A stretch of DNA of 49,863 nucleotides from Gemmatimonadota bacterium. GTDB taxonomy: Bacteria; Gemmatimonadota; Gemmatimonadetes; Longimicrobiales; Gaopeijiaceae. Under the pieces are notes generated by a model. That model was given only the letters and a program-made list of their open reading frames with translations. It had not been told where the DNA came from and ran no database searches. The DNA lies in the NCBI GenBank assembly GCA_009841475.1, contig VXLT01000082.1, forward strand, positions 1 through 49,863, written 5' to 3'. Both the position numbers and the translations under genes were made by a program. Shown one piece after another: positions 1,965-36,446 of the stretch (positions are counted from its first letter, which is position 1; every line of letters starts with the position of its first letter).

Positions 1965-3240
1965 GGCGTTGGCCGCGGATGAGGTCGCTGTACCGCTCGC
2001 GCCGCCGGACGAGCGTGGCGCGGCCGCCGTGCACCAGCACCTCGGCGGGGCGGGGCCGCGAGTTGTAGTTCGACGCCATCGTGAAGCCGTAGGCGCCCGC
2101 CTGATGGACGCACAGGAGCGCGCCGGGGGACGGCACGGGGAGGAGCCGGTCCCGGGCGAGGAAGTCGCCCTGCTCGCAAACGGGCCCGACGACGTCCACG
2201 ATTTCCTCGTCGCCGTGGCCGTCTTCGCACACGGGCGTCACGGCGTGCACGCCGCCGTAGTGACTGGGCCGGATGAGCTCGGTCATGCCCGCGTCGGTGA
2301 CCACGAAGGTCTTGCCGCCGCTGCGCTTCACGTAGAGGACGCGCGTGACGAGCACGCCCGCGTCGCCGACCAGGAACCTGCCCGGTTCGACGATCAGTTC
2401 CAGACCGCGGCCCCGGAGCCTTGCGGCGACCTCGCGGCCGAGCGCCCGCACATCCAGCTCGCCGGCCTCCGCGTCCGCGATGCCGAAGCCGCCGCCGAGG
2501 TCCGCGTAGCGGAGCGCGATCCCCACCTCGTTGCGCACACGGTCCGCGACCTCGAGCATCACGTCGAGGGCACGCAGGTAGGGATCGCCTTCGCGCAGCT
2601 GCGAACCGATATGCACATCCACCCCCGCGGCACGCAGCCGGGGATGTTCGGCGACGCGCCGGTATAGCTCGATGGCCTCGTCCGGGGGCACGCCAAACTT
2701 TGCGGCCGCGTGCCCCGTGCGCGTGAACTCGTGAGTGGGGCTCCGCACATCCGGGTTCACGCGGATGGCTACGGGTGCCTCGCGCCCGAGCTGGGTGGCC
2801 ACGCGGGCGCACGCCTCGAGTTCCTGAGCACTCTCGACGTGGAAGGCGCGGATGCCGGCCCTGAGTCCGTCCCTCATCTCGGCGGTCGTCTTGCCGACGC
2901 CGGCAAAGACGATGCGGCCCGGAGGAAACCCCGCGTGCAAAGCGCAGTACAGTTCACCGCCGCTGACGATGTCGGCGCCGGCGCCGGCGCGTGCGAAGAG
3001 CCGCAGCAGGGCGAGGTTGGGGTTGGCCTTGACGGAGTATGCGACGAGGAGGTCCCTGGGAGAGGAGGCGAAGGCTTCCTGGAGGGTGCGCAGGCGTTCC
3101 AGGGCCCGGTCGGCATCGTAGACGTACAGCGGGGTCCCGTGTCTTTCCGCGAGGTCGTCCAGCGCGTGGGAGCCGCAGCGAAGGACTCCGCCGACGCGCG
3201 GAAATGGTGGCCGCGTGGGGGTCAGTACGCCCTGGCCCAT
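1957..3240 (-). CDS. lysA: Diaminopimelate decarboxylase
   Basis: A PLP enzyme that decarboxylates meso-diaminopimelate to L-lysine, the last step of lysine synthesis. It has a fold-type III alanine-racemase-like barrel. The PLP lysine is Lys71 in YSVKANPN, the glycine-rich phosphate loop is [12 protein letters not shown] follows, and the active-site Cys is in GPVCEQGD. The length is 427 aa from the ATG at 3240. A much longer reading in this frame (to 4563) exists only because the frame stays open through proS, so I chose the family-length start. The gene overlaps proS by 19 bp and guaA by 8 bp. Confidence 0.97.
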
Positions 3241-4697
3241 ACCACTTCCATGCGAGCCTCGCCGCCTCCGATGCAGCGTGAGGGGGGGGTGGCCGAGCGG
3301 AATTCCTCGCCGGGGATGACCCGGATGGTGGCCTTCGTGGCGTCCTTGGCACGCTCCTCGACCCCGGGATCGCCGCTCCACCCCGAATACACGAATCCGG
3401 CTCCCCCGTCCAAAAGGTCGCCCAGCTCCTCGACCGAAGTGACCTCGCCCCGGAAGGTCATCCCTTCGCGGTGGTCCCGCGCCGCCTCGAGGAGTTGCGC
3501 CTGCAGCGCCTCCAGCCGATCCCCGATGCCGCCCACGGCGTCGCCCTCCGGCACGGCCTCCTTGCGGGCGCCCGACACGCCGGCCACGCGCGGCACCACC
3601 ACGACCTCCCCCCGCTCCACGTCCCGCGGGCCGATCTCGATGCGCAGCGGCACGCCCTTGCGCTCCCACTCGAAGAACTTGGCGCCCGGCGACAGATGGC
3701 GCCGGCGATCGACATCGGCCCGCACCCCCCTGCGCTGCAGCGCCTGCACGATTCCGTCCGCCTTCTCCATCACCACGGCCGCCTGTTCGTCGCTGCGCGC
3801 AATCGGAGTCACGATCACCTGGGTCGGGGCCAGCCTGGGCGGGACAACCACGCCCACATCGTCCCCATGTGTCATGACGAGTCCGCCCACCAGCCTCGTG
3901 GACACGCCCCACGACGTGTTCCACGCGTACTCCTCCCTTCCCTCCTCGCTCTGGAAGGTCAGGCCGAACTGCCGCGCGAAGTTCTGCCCCAGCATGTGCG
4001 AGGTGCCGGCCTGCAGCGCCTTGCCGTCCTGCATGAGCGCCTCGCACGCATAGCTGCGGTCGGCCCCGGCGAAGGTCTCGGACCTGCTCTTGAGACCGGT
4101 CAGCGGAGGCATCGCCATCCAGTCCTCCATGAAGGTGCGGTAGATCCCCAGGATCAGCCGGGCCTCCTGTTCGGCCTCGGCCTCGGTTGCATGCGCGGTG
4201 TGTCCCTCCTGCCAGAGGAATTCGGCCGTACGGAGGAAGAGCCGGGTGCGGAGCTCCCAGCGCATGACGTTCGCCCACTGGTTGAGGAGCACGGGAAGGT
4301 CGCGGTAGCTCTGCACCCACTTGGCGTACATGGAGTAGATGATCGTCTCGGAGGTGGGGCGCACCACATAGGGCTCCTCCAGCTCCTTCCCGCCCGCGTG
4401 GGTAACGACCGCAAGTTCGGGCTTGAAGCCCTCGATGTGCTCCTTCTCGCGCTCGATGAAGCTCATGGGGATGAGCAGCGGGAAGTACGCGTTCTGATGT
4501 CCGGATGCCTTGAACATGTCGTCCAGGGCGCGCTGCATGTTCTCCCAGATCCCGTACCCCCACGGCCGGATCACCATGCTGCCCCGGACCGGGGAGTAGT
4601 CGGCCAGCTCGGCTTCCTGGACGACCTCGTTGTACCAGGCGCTGAAGTCCTCCGACCTCGGCGTCAGTCCCTTCCTTCGCCTCTTCCTTGTGTTCAT
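3222..4697 (-). CDS. proS: Prolyl-tRNA synthetase, archaeal/eukaryote-type
   Basis: It charges tRNA-Pro. The 491-residue protein is the short type without the ~180-residue editing insertion of E. coli ProRS. Class II motifs are visible: motif 2 around MRWELRTRLFLRTAEFLWQEGH and motif 3 around GLVMTHGDD. The anticodon-binding domain follows (about 280-400). The C-terminus ends in the typical ARAY with a terminal Tyr. In relatives the C-terminal domain binds zinc through four Cys; here the first pair reads WSGDPGVE and the second CIGGGEA, so only one Cys remains and zinc binding is probably lost. It is the first gene of proS-lysA-guaA. Confidence 0.97.
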   Translation of the reverse strand: MNTRKRRRKGLTPRSEDFSAWYNEVVQEAELADYSPVRGSMVIRPWGYGIWENMQRALDDMFKASGHQNAYFPLLIPMSFIEREKEHIEGFKPELAVVTHAGGKELEEPYVVRPTSETIIYSMYAKWVQSYRDLPVLLNQWANVMRWELRTRLFLRTAEFLWQEGHTAHATEAEAEQEARLILGIYRTFMEDWMAMPPLTGLKSRSETFAGADRSYACEALMQDGKALQAGTSHMLGQNFARQFGLTFQSEEGREEYAWNTSWGVSTRLVGGLVMTHGDDVGVVVPPRLAPTQVIVTPIARSDEQAAVVMEKADGIVQALQRRGVRADVDRRRHLSPGAKFFEWERKGVPLRIEIGPRDVERGEVVVVPRVAGVSGARKEAVPEGDAVGGIGDRLEALQAQLLEAARDHREGMTFRGEVTSVEELGDLLDGGAGFVYSGWSGDPGVEERAKDATKATIRVIPGEEFRSATPPSRCIGGGEARMEVVWARAY

Positions 4698-4733
4698 TCA
4701 GCCTTCGTGGCCTCCCTGGCAGTCCGTGGCATA

Positions 4734-4836
4734 AGTCCCCGCTGCATTCGCGCAGCGATGCATCCGGGCTGAACCGCGGTGCCCTCGCATTGCAATGTCA
4801 AGACAACTTTACACTTTGTCATGTTTACTTTACTTT
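4734..4836 (+). repeat. Intergenic element, copy 1 (partner at 35223-35326)
   Basis: This stretch aligns by eye with 35223-35326 at roughly 70% identity with a single 1-nt gap. Conserved blocks are AGTCcCCGCTGC (4734-4745), ATGCATC (4758-4764), CCG then GTGCCC (ending 4784), the palindrome-like core (4796-4813) and TGTCATGTT (4817-4825). On the plus strand it ends in a promoter-like pair, TTTACA (4808-4813), 17 nt, TACTTT (4831-4836). Its distal end overlaps the stop codon of the small membrane protein gene (4825-4827). Copy 1 sits between proS and that gene, both on the minus strand, so its promoter reads antisense to hisS. Confidence 0.6.
4796..4813. promoter_or_regulatory. Imperfect palindrome, possible operator, overlapping a -35 box
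   Basis: TGTCAAG-ACAA-CTTTACA has 7-bp arms with one mismatch around a 4-nt centre, the size and symmetry of a dimeric HTH-regulator site. The right arm contains the TTTACA -35-like hexamer of the plus-strand promoter. The left arm read on the minus strand gives TTGACA, but no -10 follows at the right spacing. The same arrangement occurs at 35286-35303. The cognate regulator is not in this window. Confidence 0.45.
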
Positions 4837-5193
4837 CCGCGCTTCTGAAGCACCGCTGTCGCGCGCCTCGCGGCGCCTGCGCCGCTCCATCGTCCAAGCC
4901 ACGACGGCCGGGACGATGAACAACAGTAACGAAAGAACCATCCAGGTAGTCCTCAGCGGCAGGCCGAAGGCGCTGCGCGCCAGGAGGGCGCCCAGCCAGC
5001 CGCCCAGGAGCGCGACGACCGCCGCCGCGCCCATGATCAGCGTCTCCAGCAGGTTGAGGCGCCGTATGGCACGGGACACGACCTCCCGGGCCGCCTGAAT
5101 GTCCTCCGGGGTGGAGCTGCGGCGGACGGGTCTCGTGCCGGCCGGTATCCCGCGGGCCCTGGACTTCCGGGCCGAGCGCTTCTTCGCGCTCAC
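4825..5193 (-). CDS. Small two-TM membrane protein coupled to hisS
   Basis: A 122-residue protein with GTG start. The GTG overlaps the hisS stop (GTGA), so translation is probably coupled. The N-terminal ~25 residues are Lys/Arg-rich. A helical segment (STPEDIQAAREVVSRAIRRL) comes next, then two hydrophobic segments (about 60-82 and 86-108), then a charged tail rich in Arg/Glu. The basic ends suggest both termini are cytoplasmic. I recognise no family. The TAA stop and last codons lie within the repeated intergenic element 4734-4836, so the C-terminus may have been shaped by that element. Confidence 0.7.
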   Translation of the reverse strand: MSAKKRSARKSRARGIPAGTRPVRRSSTPEDIQAAREVVSRAIRRLNLLETLIMGAAAVVALLGGWLGALLARSAFGLPLRTTWMVLSLLLFIVPAVVAWTMERRRRREARDSGASEARKVK

Positions 5194-7829: not shown

Positions 7830-8687
7830 TCAGCCCCAGGGTCTCCAGCCTTCCCGGGAGTGGCGCAGCAGCTGCGCGATGGCACCCTTCAGTTCCCGCC
7901 GGTCGACGACCCTGTCCACCATCCCGTGCTCCTCCAGGAACTCGGCGCTCTGGAAGCCGGGCGGCAGCTCCTGCTTGATCGTCTCGCCGATCACGCGCGG
8001 ACCCGCGAAGCCGATCAGGGCGCCCGGTTCGGCGAGGTTTACGTCGCCGAGCATCGCGTACGACGCGGTGACGCCCCCCGTCGTGGGATCGGTGAGCACC
8101 GAGATGTACGGGAGGCCTCGCTCGTGCAGGCGGGCCAGCACCGCGGACGTCTTGGCCATCTGCATGAGCGAGAAGATCCCCTCCATCATCCTGGCTCCTC
8201 CCGACGCGCTCAACACGATCAGGGGAAGCTCGCCGGCCAGCGCATCCCTGCCCGCGCGTGCAATCTTCTCACCCACCACGGACCCCATGGAGCCGCCGAT
8301 GAAGCTGAAGTCCATGACCGCCAGCACCACCGGGATGCCCTCGATCCGGGCCCTGCCGGTGACGACGGCCTCGTTGCGGCCGGTTCGGCGGCGCGCCGCC
8401 TGAAGGCGATCACCGTATTCCTTCAGGTCCGTGAACCCGAGCGGGTCGCCGCTCTCCATCTCCGCATCGCGCTCCTCGAACGAATCCGGATCGGCCAGGA
8501 TCTCCAGGTAGCGGGCGGCCGAAATCCGGAAGTGGTTCCCGCATTCGGGACACACTCCAAGGTTGCGTGCAAGGCGCTCCCTGTAGAGGATCTCGCCGCA
8601 CGCGCCGCACTTCTCGAAGACATCGCGCGGCAGATCGCGCCTGTCCTCCGAAGTGAGCCTCTTCTTCTGTTTTCGAAACCAGGTCAA
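7830..8687 (-). CDS. accD: Acetyl-CoA carboxylase carboxyltransferase subunit beta
   Basis: The beta half of the carboxyltransferase that transfers carboxyl from biotin to acetyl-CoA, giving malonyl-CoA for fatty-acid synthesis. The N-terminal four-Cys zinc ribbon is intact (Cys27, Cys30, Cys46, Cys49). The crotonase-fold domain has the oxyanion-region glycines (SASGGARM, TDPTTGGVTAS, GFAGPRVI). 285 residues is normal. Its partner accA is not in the window. It follows rodA by 21 bp and precedes folC, the familiar accD-folC order. Confidence 0.97.
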   Translation of the reverse strand: MTWFRKQKKRLTSEDRRDLPRDVFEKCGACGEILYRERLARNLGVCPECGNHFRISAARYLEILADPDSFEERDAEMESGDPLGFTDLKEYGDRLQAARRRTGRNEAVVTGRARIEGIPVVLAVMDFSFIGGSMGSVVGEKIARAGRDALAGELPLIVLSASGGARMMEGIFSLMQMAKTSAVLARLHERGLPYISVLTDPTTGGVTASYAMLGDVNLAEPGALIGFAGPRVIGETIKQELPPGFQSAEFLEEHGMVDRVVDRRELKGAIAQLLRHSREGWRPWG

Positions 8688-31803: not shown

Positions 31804-33075
31804 TCAAGGCGCCTCGCCAACGCGGCGCCTCGCCGCTCTCGGTGCTCGCGCGGGCTTGTCCACGGACTGCTGCGGGAGACGGGCCTGGAATGTAACACCG
31901 CGCTCACCACGGTCGAGGAGTTCGATGCGGCCCCGATGGACCACTTCGATGATGCGGCGGGTCAGGGTAAGACCGACCCCCCAGCCGCCCGACTTGGTCG
32001 TCACCCCGGGATCGAAGAGACGGTCGCGGATTTCGAAGGGCACGCCGGGCCCGGTGTCCCGGATCCTCAGCAGGACCCAGCGGGAGTCGGGGACCCGGGC
32101 CGAGATGGTGATCGATCCGCCGGTCCCCGCCATCGCGTCGAGCGCGTTCTTGACGACATTCTCGAGGGCCCAGGTCAGCAGCACTTCATGGCCCTGGACG
32201 TCCGGCAGGTCGTCCGGCACGTCGACATGCAGCGCCACACCCGGACCCAGCCGCGGCAGCCGGACCTCCATGTACGAGCGCAGTTCGTCCACGACGTGCT
32301 TGAGCGACACCCGCCGCAGCGCCGGATCCCGTCCGATCAGCTCGAACCGCCGGCTGACCCTCTCGAGCCGAACCAGGTCGTCGCCGATGGCGGTCGCGAC
32401 CTCGGCCTGGTCCATCCGCTCCGGTCGCTGGTCGGGAGTCATCCCCAGCAGTTCCACCCAACCCTGCAGCGAGCTGATGGGCGTGCCCAGCTGGTGCGCA
32501 AGCTCCCTCGCCATCGCCGTCCAGGCCTGCTCCGCCTCCGTGCGGCGCTGATACCGGAAGACCGACACCGCAAGCAGCACCGTGAGCAGCATGCCCGTCC
32601 CCCAGAGGATGGGAATCCACCGCAGCCTGGCGTCCTCGGGCGTGATCCCGTAGTGCACGAGCGCCGCACTCCCCACCACGGGCTCGTTGCGGGTGTCCAG
32701 CTGCTCCGAGGTATAGCGGAGGATGCGCACCGTGTCCTGCGGCGTCGGGGGGTCGGCGATCGCGAACGGCAGGTTGACGGAGGCGATGTAGCGGCCGTCG
32801 TCGCCCGAAGTGACCACCAGTGGCACACCGAGATCGACCAGAAGCTCCTGCAGATCATGGAGCGCGGCCAGCTCGGCGCCGGCTTCCCGGCTCGCAAGCC
32901 CCTCCTGCACGGCCGCGTAGATTCGCGCGGTGATCTCCACGTCGGCGTCGCGGGAGCGCACGATCGCGACCGTGTAGACCATGTACCAGACCAGCAGTGC
33001 GACGAAAACCATGGCGAGCGCGGTGGGCCACGTCCGCGACGCCGTCGGGTTGCGCCTTCCCTTTTCTCTGTTCAT
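31804..33075 (-). CDS. Orphan membrane sensor histidine kinase
   Basis: 423 residues. TM1 (about 18-38), an extracytoplasmic region of ~115 residues without a recognised fold, TM2 (about 153-172), then a HisKA-like dimerisation segment with the phospho-acceptor in ELAHQLGTP. The HATPase domain has an N-box ENVVKNALDAM, G1 DTGPGV and G2 GGWGVGLTL. The tail is Arg/Ala-rich. There is no response regulator beside it; the only one in the window is the NtrC-type gene at 47675. The start ATG is preceded by GGAGGAGGGG, but that Shine-Dalgarno is in the arm of a hairpin (33081-33100). Confidence 0.93.
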   Translation of the reverse strand: MNREKGRRNPTASRTWPTALAMVFVALLVWYMVYTVAIVRSRDADVEITARIYAAVQEGLASREAGAELAALHDLQELLVDLGVPLVVTSGDDGRYIASVNLPFAIADPPTPQDTVRILRYTSEQLDTRNEPVVGSAALVHYGITPEDARLRWIPILWGTGMLLTVLLAVSVFRYQRRTEAEQAWTAMARELAHQLGTPISSLQGWVELLGMTPDQRPERMDQAEVATAIGDDLVRLERVSRRFELIGRDPALRRVSLKHVVDELRSYMEVRLPRLGPGVALHVDVPDDLPDVQGHEVLLTWALENVVKNALDAMAGTGGSITISARVPDSRWVLLRIRDTGPGVPFEIRDRLFDPGVTTKSGGWGVGLTLTRRIIEVVHRGRIELLDRGERGVTFQARLPQQSVDKPARAPRAARRRVGEAP

Positions 33076-34504: not shown

Positions 34505-35116
34505 CTAGTCGGGCGGGATGAGATCCCGGTTGTTGCAGGCGGGGCTCACGTCGAACTGGAACAGGACCCAGCCCGACGCGAAGTCGATGGCCAGCGGCTC
34601 CAACTTGCCGTAGTAGTTGCAGCTGACGCCGAACAGCCCGGTGTGCCCGCGGGTGCGGATCACATAGGTGGTGCGGGTCCTTACGGGAACCGGCACGTTG
34701 GTGGCGTACTGGGCGGTGTCTCCCGGCGCCCTCACCGCCGATTCGAAGGTCTCCCCCTCCAGCGTCGCGATCCCGGCCGCGGAGGTGACTCCCAGCGCGC
34801 CCGGAGGAAGCCAAACGAACTCCCCGCCGGCGGTGTCGACGGCCAGATCGAAGTTGCCTCCCGTCGAGTGGCTCTCGATCTGGACCGGCATCCGCGGGTG
34901 GAAGTCGAAGCCCGAATACAGATTCGGTTCGCTGCGGGACAGTGCGTAGAGGCGCACCGTGTCGGGACTCTCCACCCAGCGCACGGCCAACGGATCGTCG
35001 CCGCACGCGGCCAGAAGCGCCAGTGCCAGCGCCGTGGCGGAGAGGCTGGCGAAAGCCGGCCGGGCGAAGAATGCCGCGGCGGGCTTCCCGGCCGAGGGGA
35101 CTGCGGAGTTTCTCAT
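34505..35116 (-). CDS. Predicted lipoprotein, function unknown
   Basis: 203 residues from ATG 35116. A signal peptide with a hydrophobic core (SLSATALALALL) ends in lipobox LAAC, so Cys at about residue 38 should be lipidated. The N-terminal region before the core is long (about 22 residues). The mature part looks beta-rich, with FHPRMPVQIES, TTYVIRTRGHTGLFGVSC and two further Cys (VSC near 171, PAC near 194) that could pair. I recognise no family. Its promoter (35122-35151) ends so close to the ATG that the mRNA may be leaderless. Confidence 0.8.
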   Translation of the reverse strand: MRNSAVPSAGKPAAAFFARPAFASLSATALALALLAACGDDPLAVRWVESPDTVRLYALSRSEPNLYSGFDFHPRMPVQIESHSTGGNFDLAVDTAGGEFVWLPPGALGVTSAAGIATLEGETFESAVRAPGDTAQYATNVPVPVRTRTTYVIRTRGHTGLFGVSCNYYGKLEPLAIDFASGWVLFQFDVSPACNNRDLIPPD

Positions 35117-35222: not shown

Positions 35223-35326
35223 AGTCTCCGCTGCCTGCGGTCGGCAATGCATCGACACTCGACCGCCGTGCCCGGCTGGCCAGTACGTAAAGAAAACATT
35301 ACAAGATGTCATGTTCACCATACATT
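35223..35326 (+). repeat. Intergenic element, copy 2 (partner at 4734-4836)
   Basis: It aligns with 4734-4836 over its full length with one 1-nt gap, roughly 70% identical by eye. Shared blocks: AGTCtCCGCTGC (35223-35234), ATGCATC (35247-35253), CCG.CGTGCCC (ending 35273), palindrome-like core cGTAAAG-AAAA-CATTACA (35286-35303) and TGTCATGTT (35307-35315). It fills most of the 241-bp gap between the lipoprotein gene and manC. The remainder of the gap holds the lipoprotein promoter and nothing else that I can identify. Confidence 0.6.
35298..35326 (+). promoter_or_regulatory. Predicted promoter of manC inside the repeated element
   Basis: ATTACA (35298-35303), 17-nt spacer, TACATT (35321-35326), directly matching TTTACA-17-TACTTT in copy 1. 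Transcription would begin near 35333, about 25 nt before the manC ATG. The -35 hexamer is one arm of the palindrome at 35286-35303, an arrangement expected for repression by a bound protein. Confidence 0.5.
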
Positions 35327-35357: not shown

Positions 35358-36446
35358 ATGAGCGGAGTCTCCGGCCCCTCCTTGTGGGTCACGATTCTGG
35401 CGGGGGGATCCGGCCAGCGCTTCTGGCCCCTGAGCAAAGCGGACCGGCCCAAGCAGCTGCTTCCGCTCGGATCCGCGCGACCGATGATCGTCGACACCCT
35501 TGAGCGGCTGCCCGGACTGGCGCTCCCGGAGCGGACCCGGATCCTGGCCGGAGAAGGCCTTGTGGCGCCAATCCGCGAGGTGACCGGCCTGCCGGCGAGC
35601 GCCTTCCTGGAGGAGCCCAGGCCCCGGGGTACCGGACCGGTTCTCGCTTGGGCGGCCTGGGAGCTGGAGCGGGCCGGCCCCGGCGCGGTGATGGTCTCGC
35701 TCCACGCCGACCACGTCATCGACCCCGCCTCCGGCTTCCGGGACGCGGTGCGCGCCGCCGCGGCCATCGCCGTGCGAGAAAACCTGCTGATGACGATCGC
35801 CGTCCCGCCCGACCGGCCCGAGACGGGGTACGGCTACCTGCGGCCCGGCCGTTCCCTGGATGCGCCGCCCGGCCACCGGGCCTTTCGCGTCGAGGCGTTC
35901 GCCGAGAAGCCGGACACGGCCACCGCCGTGCGGTACATCCGCGAAGGGTATCGCTGGAACTCCGGGATCTTCGTCTGGCCGGCCGCCACCTTCCTGGCCG
36001 AGATCGAGGCGCACGCCCCCGGGATCGCGCGCGCGTTCCCCCTGCTCGAGCGGGGCGATGTCCCGGGCTTCTTCAGCGAGGTCGAGCCGATGTCGGTGGA
36101 CGAGGGGGTGCTGGAGCGCAGCGGCCGGGTGGGATCCCTCGACGCGACCTTTGCGTGGGACGACGTGGGGACCTGGGAGGCCTTCGCGCGTCACAGGCGG
36201 GCGGACGAGGACGGGAACGTGTCGCAGGGGGAGGTGCACCTTGCCGACGCCCGCGGCAACATCGCCGTCGCGGACTCGGGGCGCGTGGTGCTGCTGGGGG
36301 TGCGGGACCTGCTCGTCGTCCGGACGGAACGGGAAACGCTCGTCATGCCTCGGTCCCGTTCGGCGGAGTTGAAGCGGTACTTGCGCAATAAAGATCATAA
36401 GGCTATATTATATCCCCGCGAAAGGTCGGGAGCCGGCTCCGGCTGA
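35358..36446 (+). CDS. manC: Mannose-1-phosphate guanylyltransferase
   Basis: It makes GDP-mannose from mannose-1-phosphate and GTP for glycan or glycolipid synthesis. 362 residues, so it lacks the C-terminal isomerase domain of bifunctional ManC. Signature GGSGQRFWPLS (16-26) followed by PKQLLPL; metal-binding HADH near 115; the product-side EKPD and WNSGIF motifs, and WDDVGTWEA near 270. The stop overlaps the next gene's ATG (TGATG). A second promoter for the downstream gene lies in its 3' end. Confidence 0.93.
   Translation: MSGVSGPSLWVTILAGGSGQRFWPLSKADRPKQLLPLGSARPMIVDTLERLPGLALPERTRILAGEGLVAPIREVTGLPASAFLEEPRPRGTGPVLAWAAWELERAGPGAVMVSLHADHVIDPASGFRDAVRAAAAIAVRENLLMTIAVPPDRPETGYGYLRPGRSLDAPPGHRAFRVEAFAEKPDTATAVRYIREGYRWNSGIFVWPAATFLAEIEAHAPGIARAFPLLERGDVPGFFSEVEPMSVDEGVLERSGRVGSLDATFAWDDVGTWEAFARHRRADEDGNVSQGEVHLADARGNIAVADSGRVVLLGVRDLLVVRTERETLVMPRSRSAELKRYLRNKDHKAILYPRERSGAGSG
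36381..36409 (+). promoter_or_regulatory. Internal promoter in the 3' end of manC
   Basis: TTGCGC (36381-36386), 17-nt spacer, TATATT (36404-36409). The -10 box lies in an AT-rich island (roughly 36387-36413) that stands out in a GC-rich gene. Initiation near 36416 would give a ~30-nt leader to the nucleotidyltransferase gene at 36446. Confidence 0.5.

Follow-up and report, generated by a model that had tools for sequence, protein, structure and literature searches.

Two copies of a palindromic site in the window

The window, by which we mean the whole stretch of 49,863 nucleotides that was analysed, contains two related elements of about 100 bp, one at 4734-4836 beside the prolyl-tRNA ligase gene proS (3222-4697, minus strand) and one at 35223-35326 beside the nucleotidyltransferase gene manC (35358-36446, plus strand). 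The first, copy 1, faces no gene start, as it is flanked by proS (start 4697) and by a gene for a DUF2269-like membrane protein (4825-5193), both on the minus strand; this gene call, like all of those used here, is heuristic. The second, copy 2, has its core 34 bp upstream of manC, and its divergent neighbour on the other side is a lipoprotein-like gene with no Pfam family (34505-35116, minus strand). Rfam and tRNA scans of the window found nothing. The likeness between the two copies was first pointed out in a sequence-only reading of this DNA, and it is real at these coordinates, with the two copies alignable over about 100 bp.

What is conserved is a near-palindrome of 37 bp. It is built from two 16-bp palindromes, GTMAWG-N4-CWTKAC, that begin exactly 21 bp apart, and in many copies AAT and ATT flank the 37-bp core. 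The core of copy 2 is at 35287-35323 on the plus strand (GTAAAGAAAACATTACAAGATGTCATGTTCACCATAC), with unit A at 35287-35302 (the 16-bp palindrome GTAAAG-N4-CATTAC) and unit B, which starts 21 bp after unit A, at 35308-35323 (GTCATG-N4-CCATAC). The core of copy 1, also on the plus strand, is at 4797-4833 (GTCAAGACAACTTTACACTTTGTCATGTTTACTTTAC), and its units are A at 4797-4812 and B at 4818-4833. The core pattern has exactly 2 matches in the window and 0 in 100 dinucleotide shuffles. The sequence-only reading had described an 18-bp palindrome followed by TGTCATGTT. The palindrome is the first unit plus one base on each side, TGTCATGTT is the start of the second unit, and the two together form the single 37-bp near-palindrome. 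The same reading noted -35/-10-like pairs, and these are present as described, with a spacing of exactly 17 nt in both copies. In copy 2 the pair spans 35298-35326 on the plus strand (ATTACA at 35298-35303, TACATT at 35321-35326), and in copy 1 it spans 4808-4836 (TTTACA at 4808-4813, TACTTT at 4831-4836). The pair in copy 2 is part of the palindrome and is mirrored on the other strand; because the resemblance lies in the palindrome itself, the same "promoter" is present on both strands.

The site is found in nearly the whole genus. In the window's genome (4.18 Mb, 369 contigs) the pattern with up to 3 mismatches has 70 matches and a reversed control pattern has 0. With up to 2 mismatches, 22 of the 23 members of the genus have the core, and it was found in none of the 36 genomes scanned from other genera in the family and order. 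With the symmetric pattern, strand hits numbered 229 in G020, 168 in G011 and 110 in G005, and the single-contig genome G021 has about 69 distinct sites; part of these counts take in both strands of one palindromic site, and the site collection is made up only of sites close to the consensus. Per genome, the family numbers some 70 to 200 of these 37-bp palindromes, which are nearly identical to each other. In an exact scan of 84,980 GTDB species genomes, the matches to the asymmetric consensus were all in Gemmatimonadota, in MAGs and in one assembled chromosome (OX638356.1), and the symmetric consensus had no exact match in the same set. The contig names of the matching records suggest sponge metagenomes, and the genus is described as sponge-associated Gemmatimonadota. 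Our literature search found no paper on such sites in Gemmatimonadota. The two window copies could have stood alone, without relatives in this or other genomes, and clearly they do not: there are copies genome-wide and in related species.

In 138 of the 140 collected sites for which units were counted, two units stand in the 21-bp register, no more and no fewer. A three-unit site in this register at L234:1787-1844 (G020, contig C24) is an exception to the two-unit rule. Separately, we noted about six direct 21-bp units, GTAAAG-N3-GAC-ATTAC..., at L199:1466-1580 (G020, contig C74, about 7965-8080), where they overlap the start of a lipoprotein-like gene; they repeat the unit and the period of the 37-bp core, but as a direct array. 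Nucleoid-organising sites of the matS, SlmA or Noc type would be expected to have a domain-specific distribution. The 69 sites of G021 lie all round its chromosome and are mildly depleted near dnaA only, so there is no sharp domain pattern.

The repeat that carries about half of the sites

Of the 73 sites in the window's genome, 39 are inside a repeat of ~249 bp (-81 to +168 around the core) with terminal inverted repeats GCAGYCCGTGGAY...RTCCACGGACTGC, and the remaining sites are isolated cores. The repeat has the properties of a MITE, as it is short (below ~600 bp), has terminal inverted repeats and no transposase gene, and is present in many dispersed copies that are polymorphic for presence and absence. 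By eye, some of the repeat copies only have TA or other dinucleotides on both sides, as a putative target-site duplication. The sequence-only reading had proposed a dispersed regulatory element or the footprint of a mobile cassette, and it was right about the dispersal and the mobile footprint, given ~70 sites of which about half are in an inverted-end repeat that is polymorphic between species.

Copy 1 is surrounded by a degraded copy of this repeat at 4719-4858 (plus strand), of which the left two-thirds are present and the right end is lost; it has 81% identity over 143 bp to the repeat copy L001, and its left terminal inverted repeat, GCAGTCCGTGGCA, is at 4719-4731 on the plus strand. The DUF2269-like gene has its C-terminus and stop codon in the MITE and core, with the stop codon (4825-4827) forming part of the core itself, and the DUF2269-like protein of relatives has a different C-terminus. 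The site is empty in 21 relatives, including G020 and G011, whose proS loci are 92% identical. Copy 1 arrived by insertion of a MITE between proS and the DUF2269-like gene.

Copy 2 has an eroded left MITE arm at 35224-35286 (plus strand), which contains the ATGCATC and GTGCCC blocks and has 74% identity over 94 bp, core included, to the MITE copy L013. The core upstream of manC is kept in four species (G000, G005, G020 and G011) and is absent there in the other genomes, and the MITE arm is detectable in G000 and not in the G020 ortholog. Copy 2 is an older, eroded MITE copy whose core has been kept. We also noted that G003 has an independent element with a terminal inverted repeat in the gap upstream of manC.

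All 23 genomes of the genus contain the repeat, and a weaker form occurs in a few other genera. Few or no cores are recognisable in the repeats of G008 (0 at 2 mismatches), G030 and G033, so the repeat and the core are separable. When 400 kb was examined for a different central core in the MITE copies of G008 and G033, two truncated ends were all that we found. Tandem arrays at exactly 249 bp are present in G021 (L179:1780-2315) and G012 (C148:13362 and 13611).

Several other occurrences of the repeat were noted in passing. MITE copies lie adjacent to each other at L012. G000 and G011 each have a core-bearing MITE between clpP and clpX, genes that were identified by eye, and the core sequence is the same in the two genomes (L066:1749-1785 and L142:1501-1537). 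In the window, a perfect MITE end on the minus strand at 31852-31870 falls in the 3' part of a histidine kinase gene, whose C-terminus was possibly made by the insertion. Core-less mini-elements of 31-88 bp have the same inverted ends (L118:457-543, L119:242-300, L124:402-432, L127:1037-1121, and L080 upstream of manC).

A 1.9-kb pair of terminal inverted repeats at C59 was the only candidate larger element that we opened. It contains no transposase and no regulator, and it was rejected as an autonomous transposon since ordinary genes lie between its decayed ends. Nor did we find an autoregulated regulator gene recurring beside the isolated sites, and the suggestion that the cassette brings its own repressor is accordingly not supported by either the one larger element or the neighbours of the isolated sites.

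When we searched around the ~68 isolated sites with a profile HMM, remnants of MITE arms were found at 6, which is similar to a few control hits. Because isolated sites are mostly without detectable arms, some of them may have another origin. Descent of the isolated sites from MITEs is plausible, with support at the manC locus and none from the profile search of the rest.

Retention and gene context of the sites

To measure retention we used the orthologous gaps of isolated sites in G005, G020 and G011, where 16 sites yielded 29 pairs. Changes were seen at 46 of 667 consensus positions (7%), compared with 82 of 261 (31%) for free positions (p=5e-20) and 528 of 1258 (42%) for flanks (p=1e-66), the figure for the flanks being an upper bound as they were compared ungapped. 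A site has to be recognisable to be counted, which biases the divergence, so neutral drift was simulated with the same detection filter; it gave a conditional divergence of 0.14-0.19, which at no time came down to the observed 0.069. Orthologous isolated sites are either well kept or wholly gone. The isolated 37-bp sites are kept in place by purifying selection.

The gap between an ECF sigma factor gene and its downstream partner, presumed to encode an anti-sigma factor, contains one such site. In most of the relatives measured these genes overlap or are separated by no more than 11 bp. A longer gap, of 63-64 bp and with a core inside it, is found in G000, G005 and G020, and the core is also carried by G022 and G011. 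A 37-bp palindrome is not made by point mutation where no gap existed, so the core was inserted at the junction. This happened in one clade, and five species have kept the core without loss of its consensus positions.

A purely selfish palindromic repeat, that is, a MITE with an internal site that perhaps serves a transposase or host factor in mobility and gives the host no benefit, would explain the inverted ends, the copy number, the insertion polymorphism and the tandem 249-bp arrays. However, dead insertions should decay evenly, and instead armless cores are kept at orthologous places where the free positions diverge and the consensus does not. Mobility also seems not to need the core, given the three genomes in which the MITE has few or no recognisable cores. 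We consider this explanation quite improbable.

Nearly all of the sites (148/153, 97%) are intergenic. Those between tandem gene pairs show no preferred direction, with 45 oriented with the genes and 45 against them (19 and 21 for isolated sites, 26 and 24 for sites in MITEs). Isolated sites lie between convergent genes in 9 of 64 cases, versus a background of 18 of 294, and between divergent genes in 15 of 64, versus 68 of 294, which is no enrichment. Site ends that face gene starts and those that face gene ends are equally conserved, including TACATT. The distance to gene 3' ends (median 23 bp) is smaller than the distance to gene starts (median 50 bp), the core supplies the stop codon of several genes, and some sites are inside operons at only 9-17 bp from start codons. 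The genes adjoining the sites are functionally unrelated, and a sigma-54-like element was found near none of 68 sites. The consistent position and orientation upstream of genes that a promoter or operator would have is not seen.

These observations bear on the most conventional explanation, a regulon in which the 37-bp palindrome would be an operator over a sigma-70-like promoter (TTTACA-N17-TACATT), with the adjoining genes under the control of a global repressor or activator. Such a regulon would agree with the exact 17-nt spacing in both window copies, the position of copy 2 upstream of manC and its retention in four species, the constraint on the consensus positions, and a few sites that are well placed between divergent genes. 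It is contradicted by the random orientation of the isolated sites, the nine convergent pairs and the divergent pairs at background level, the equal retention of both kinds of site end, the sites close to start codons within operons, the unrelated functions of the adjoining genes and the lack of a sigma-54-like element. Because the sites are unoriented, occur between convergent genes and have both types of side alike, the promoter reading fails; the "promoter module" of the sequence-only reading falls with it, since sites also occur within operons and conservation of the -10-like end is not higher on the side of a gene start than on that of a gene end. Overall we regard a conventional regulon as unlikely.

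The nearness of sites to gene 3' ends, and the stop codons that several genes take from the core, would be in keeping with an RNA-level element, such as a hairpin, terminator or processing site in a transcribed gap near gene ends. However, the partner of the highly conserved T13 is a C in 78-86% of sites, which is a mismatch, and changes in one arm are unmatched in the other. The window copies fold no better than shuffled sequences (z -0.8 and +0.3), though some sites fold well, and the G+C-rich stem and U-tract of an intrinsic terminator are missing. We rejected the hairpin or terminator reading because pairing is not preserved, and we think an element acting in RNA very unlikely.

A candidate binding protein and known systems

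The explanation that we prefer, and in which we place about as much belief as doubt, is that the palindromes are MITE-dispersed, selection-kept sites for a candidate DNA-binding protein with two dimers per site, and that its role is more likely architectural or insulating than that of a promoter switch. A sequence-specific protein would bind the 37-bp palindrome as a pair of neighbouring dimers, both on the same face of the helix, given palindromes of 16-20 bp with centres 21 bp apart. From the near-invariant count of exactly two units we infer that the complex is fixed, with its two dimers separated by two helical turns. The ~249-bp MITE-like repeat would have scattered the site through the genus. 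After insertion the repeat arms would erode while the 37-bp site stays under purifying selection, and arm erosion may be the general route to isolated sites. Most likely the protein would act on the chromosome or on read-through transcription, through looping, insulation or a road-block at gene ends, and would not switch one promoter per site, because the kept sites ignore gene orientation and promoters. It is the absence of promoter signals that suggests an architectural role, and the lack of a sharp domain pattern in G021 counts against it.

This genus appears to show a small bacterial transposable element seeding genome-wide predicted protein-binding sites that are kept while their carrier decays, and the intermediate stage, in which the arm is decaying and the core is kept, can be seen in the window itself, at manC. 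As the sites are not tied to promoters, the question arises of what a candidate DNA-binding protein with ~70-200 sites does. The lineage is known here from assembled genomes only, and the 43-bp consensus could be used as bait for the candidate protein. In mammals, CTCF sites have been spread by SINEs. By analogy, and as a tentative picture that we think rather unlikely as a whole, the genus might have chromosome-wide sites resembling insulators or loop anchors for one dedicated protein, seeded by MITEs and kept by selection between genes, with an evolution like that of the SINE-spread CTCF sites.

Among known systems, the TyrR box is TGTAAA-N6-TTTACA, with its G and C 14 bp apart (PMC4374768), and GcsR binds tandem sites of the form TGTAACG-N4-CGTTCCG (PMC4894688). 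The palindrome found here is of this kind, in that the unit consensus TGTMAW-N6-WTKACA fits the TyrR consensus, has the 14-bp G-to-C spacing and occurs in tandem, as might be expected if these were enhancer sites of a TyrR/GcsR-like AAA+ enhancer-binding protein with a Fis-type helix-turn-helix. In contrast to those systems, the sites here form a fixed pair 21 bp apart, number ~70-200 per genome, have no relation to promoters, sigma-54-like ones included, and are not in promoters of amino-acid genes, and no TyrR-type HTH gene consistently accompanies them. No such domain (PF18024) was detected in G021, a genome with ~69 sites; it was weak and below the cut-off in G000, G020 and G011, and in a family search was common in genera without the motif. 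Membership of the TyrR/GcsR family is not supported, as the distribution of PF18024 does not fit, and we consider it extremely improbable that these are enhancer sites of such a protein.

For the candidate protein with two dimers per site, the operator relO of the ribbon-helix-helix protein RelB is a parallel in layout, with half-sites [A/T]TGT[A/C]A arranged as contiguous hexads in 24 bp (PMC2812701). The half-site here has the same A/C freedom, and two dimers on one face would likewise use four half-sites, whereas the hexads are 8 bp apart within the unit and extend over 43 bp, and the sites do not belong to a single autoregulated operon. Correia elements (CREE/NEMIS) of Neisseria, which have an internal IHF site and putative divergent promoters (reviewed in PMC2229807), are likewise short, non-autonomous, genus-restricted repeats with inverted ends and many copies, combining a host protein-binding site (here predicted) with promoter-like sequences. 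The repeat described here differs in that it has an internal 37-bp double palindrome and not an IHF site, and in that this palindrome is also found armless at orthologous places under purifying selection. A role in chromosome restructuring has been proposed for GalR sites (PMC5110547), and as in that case the sites of a sequence-specific regulator would lie apart from the genes that it affects, and long-range contacts are proposed; GalR is a known protein, whereas the binder here is a predicted one and its sites have been spread by a repeat.
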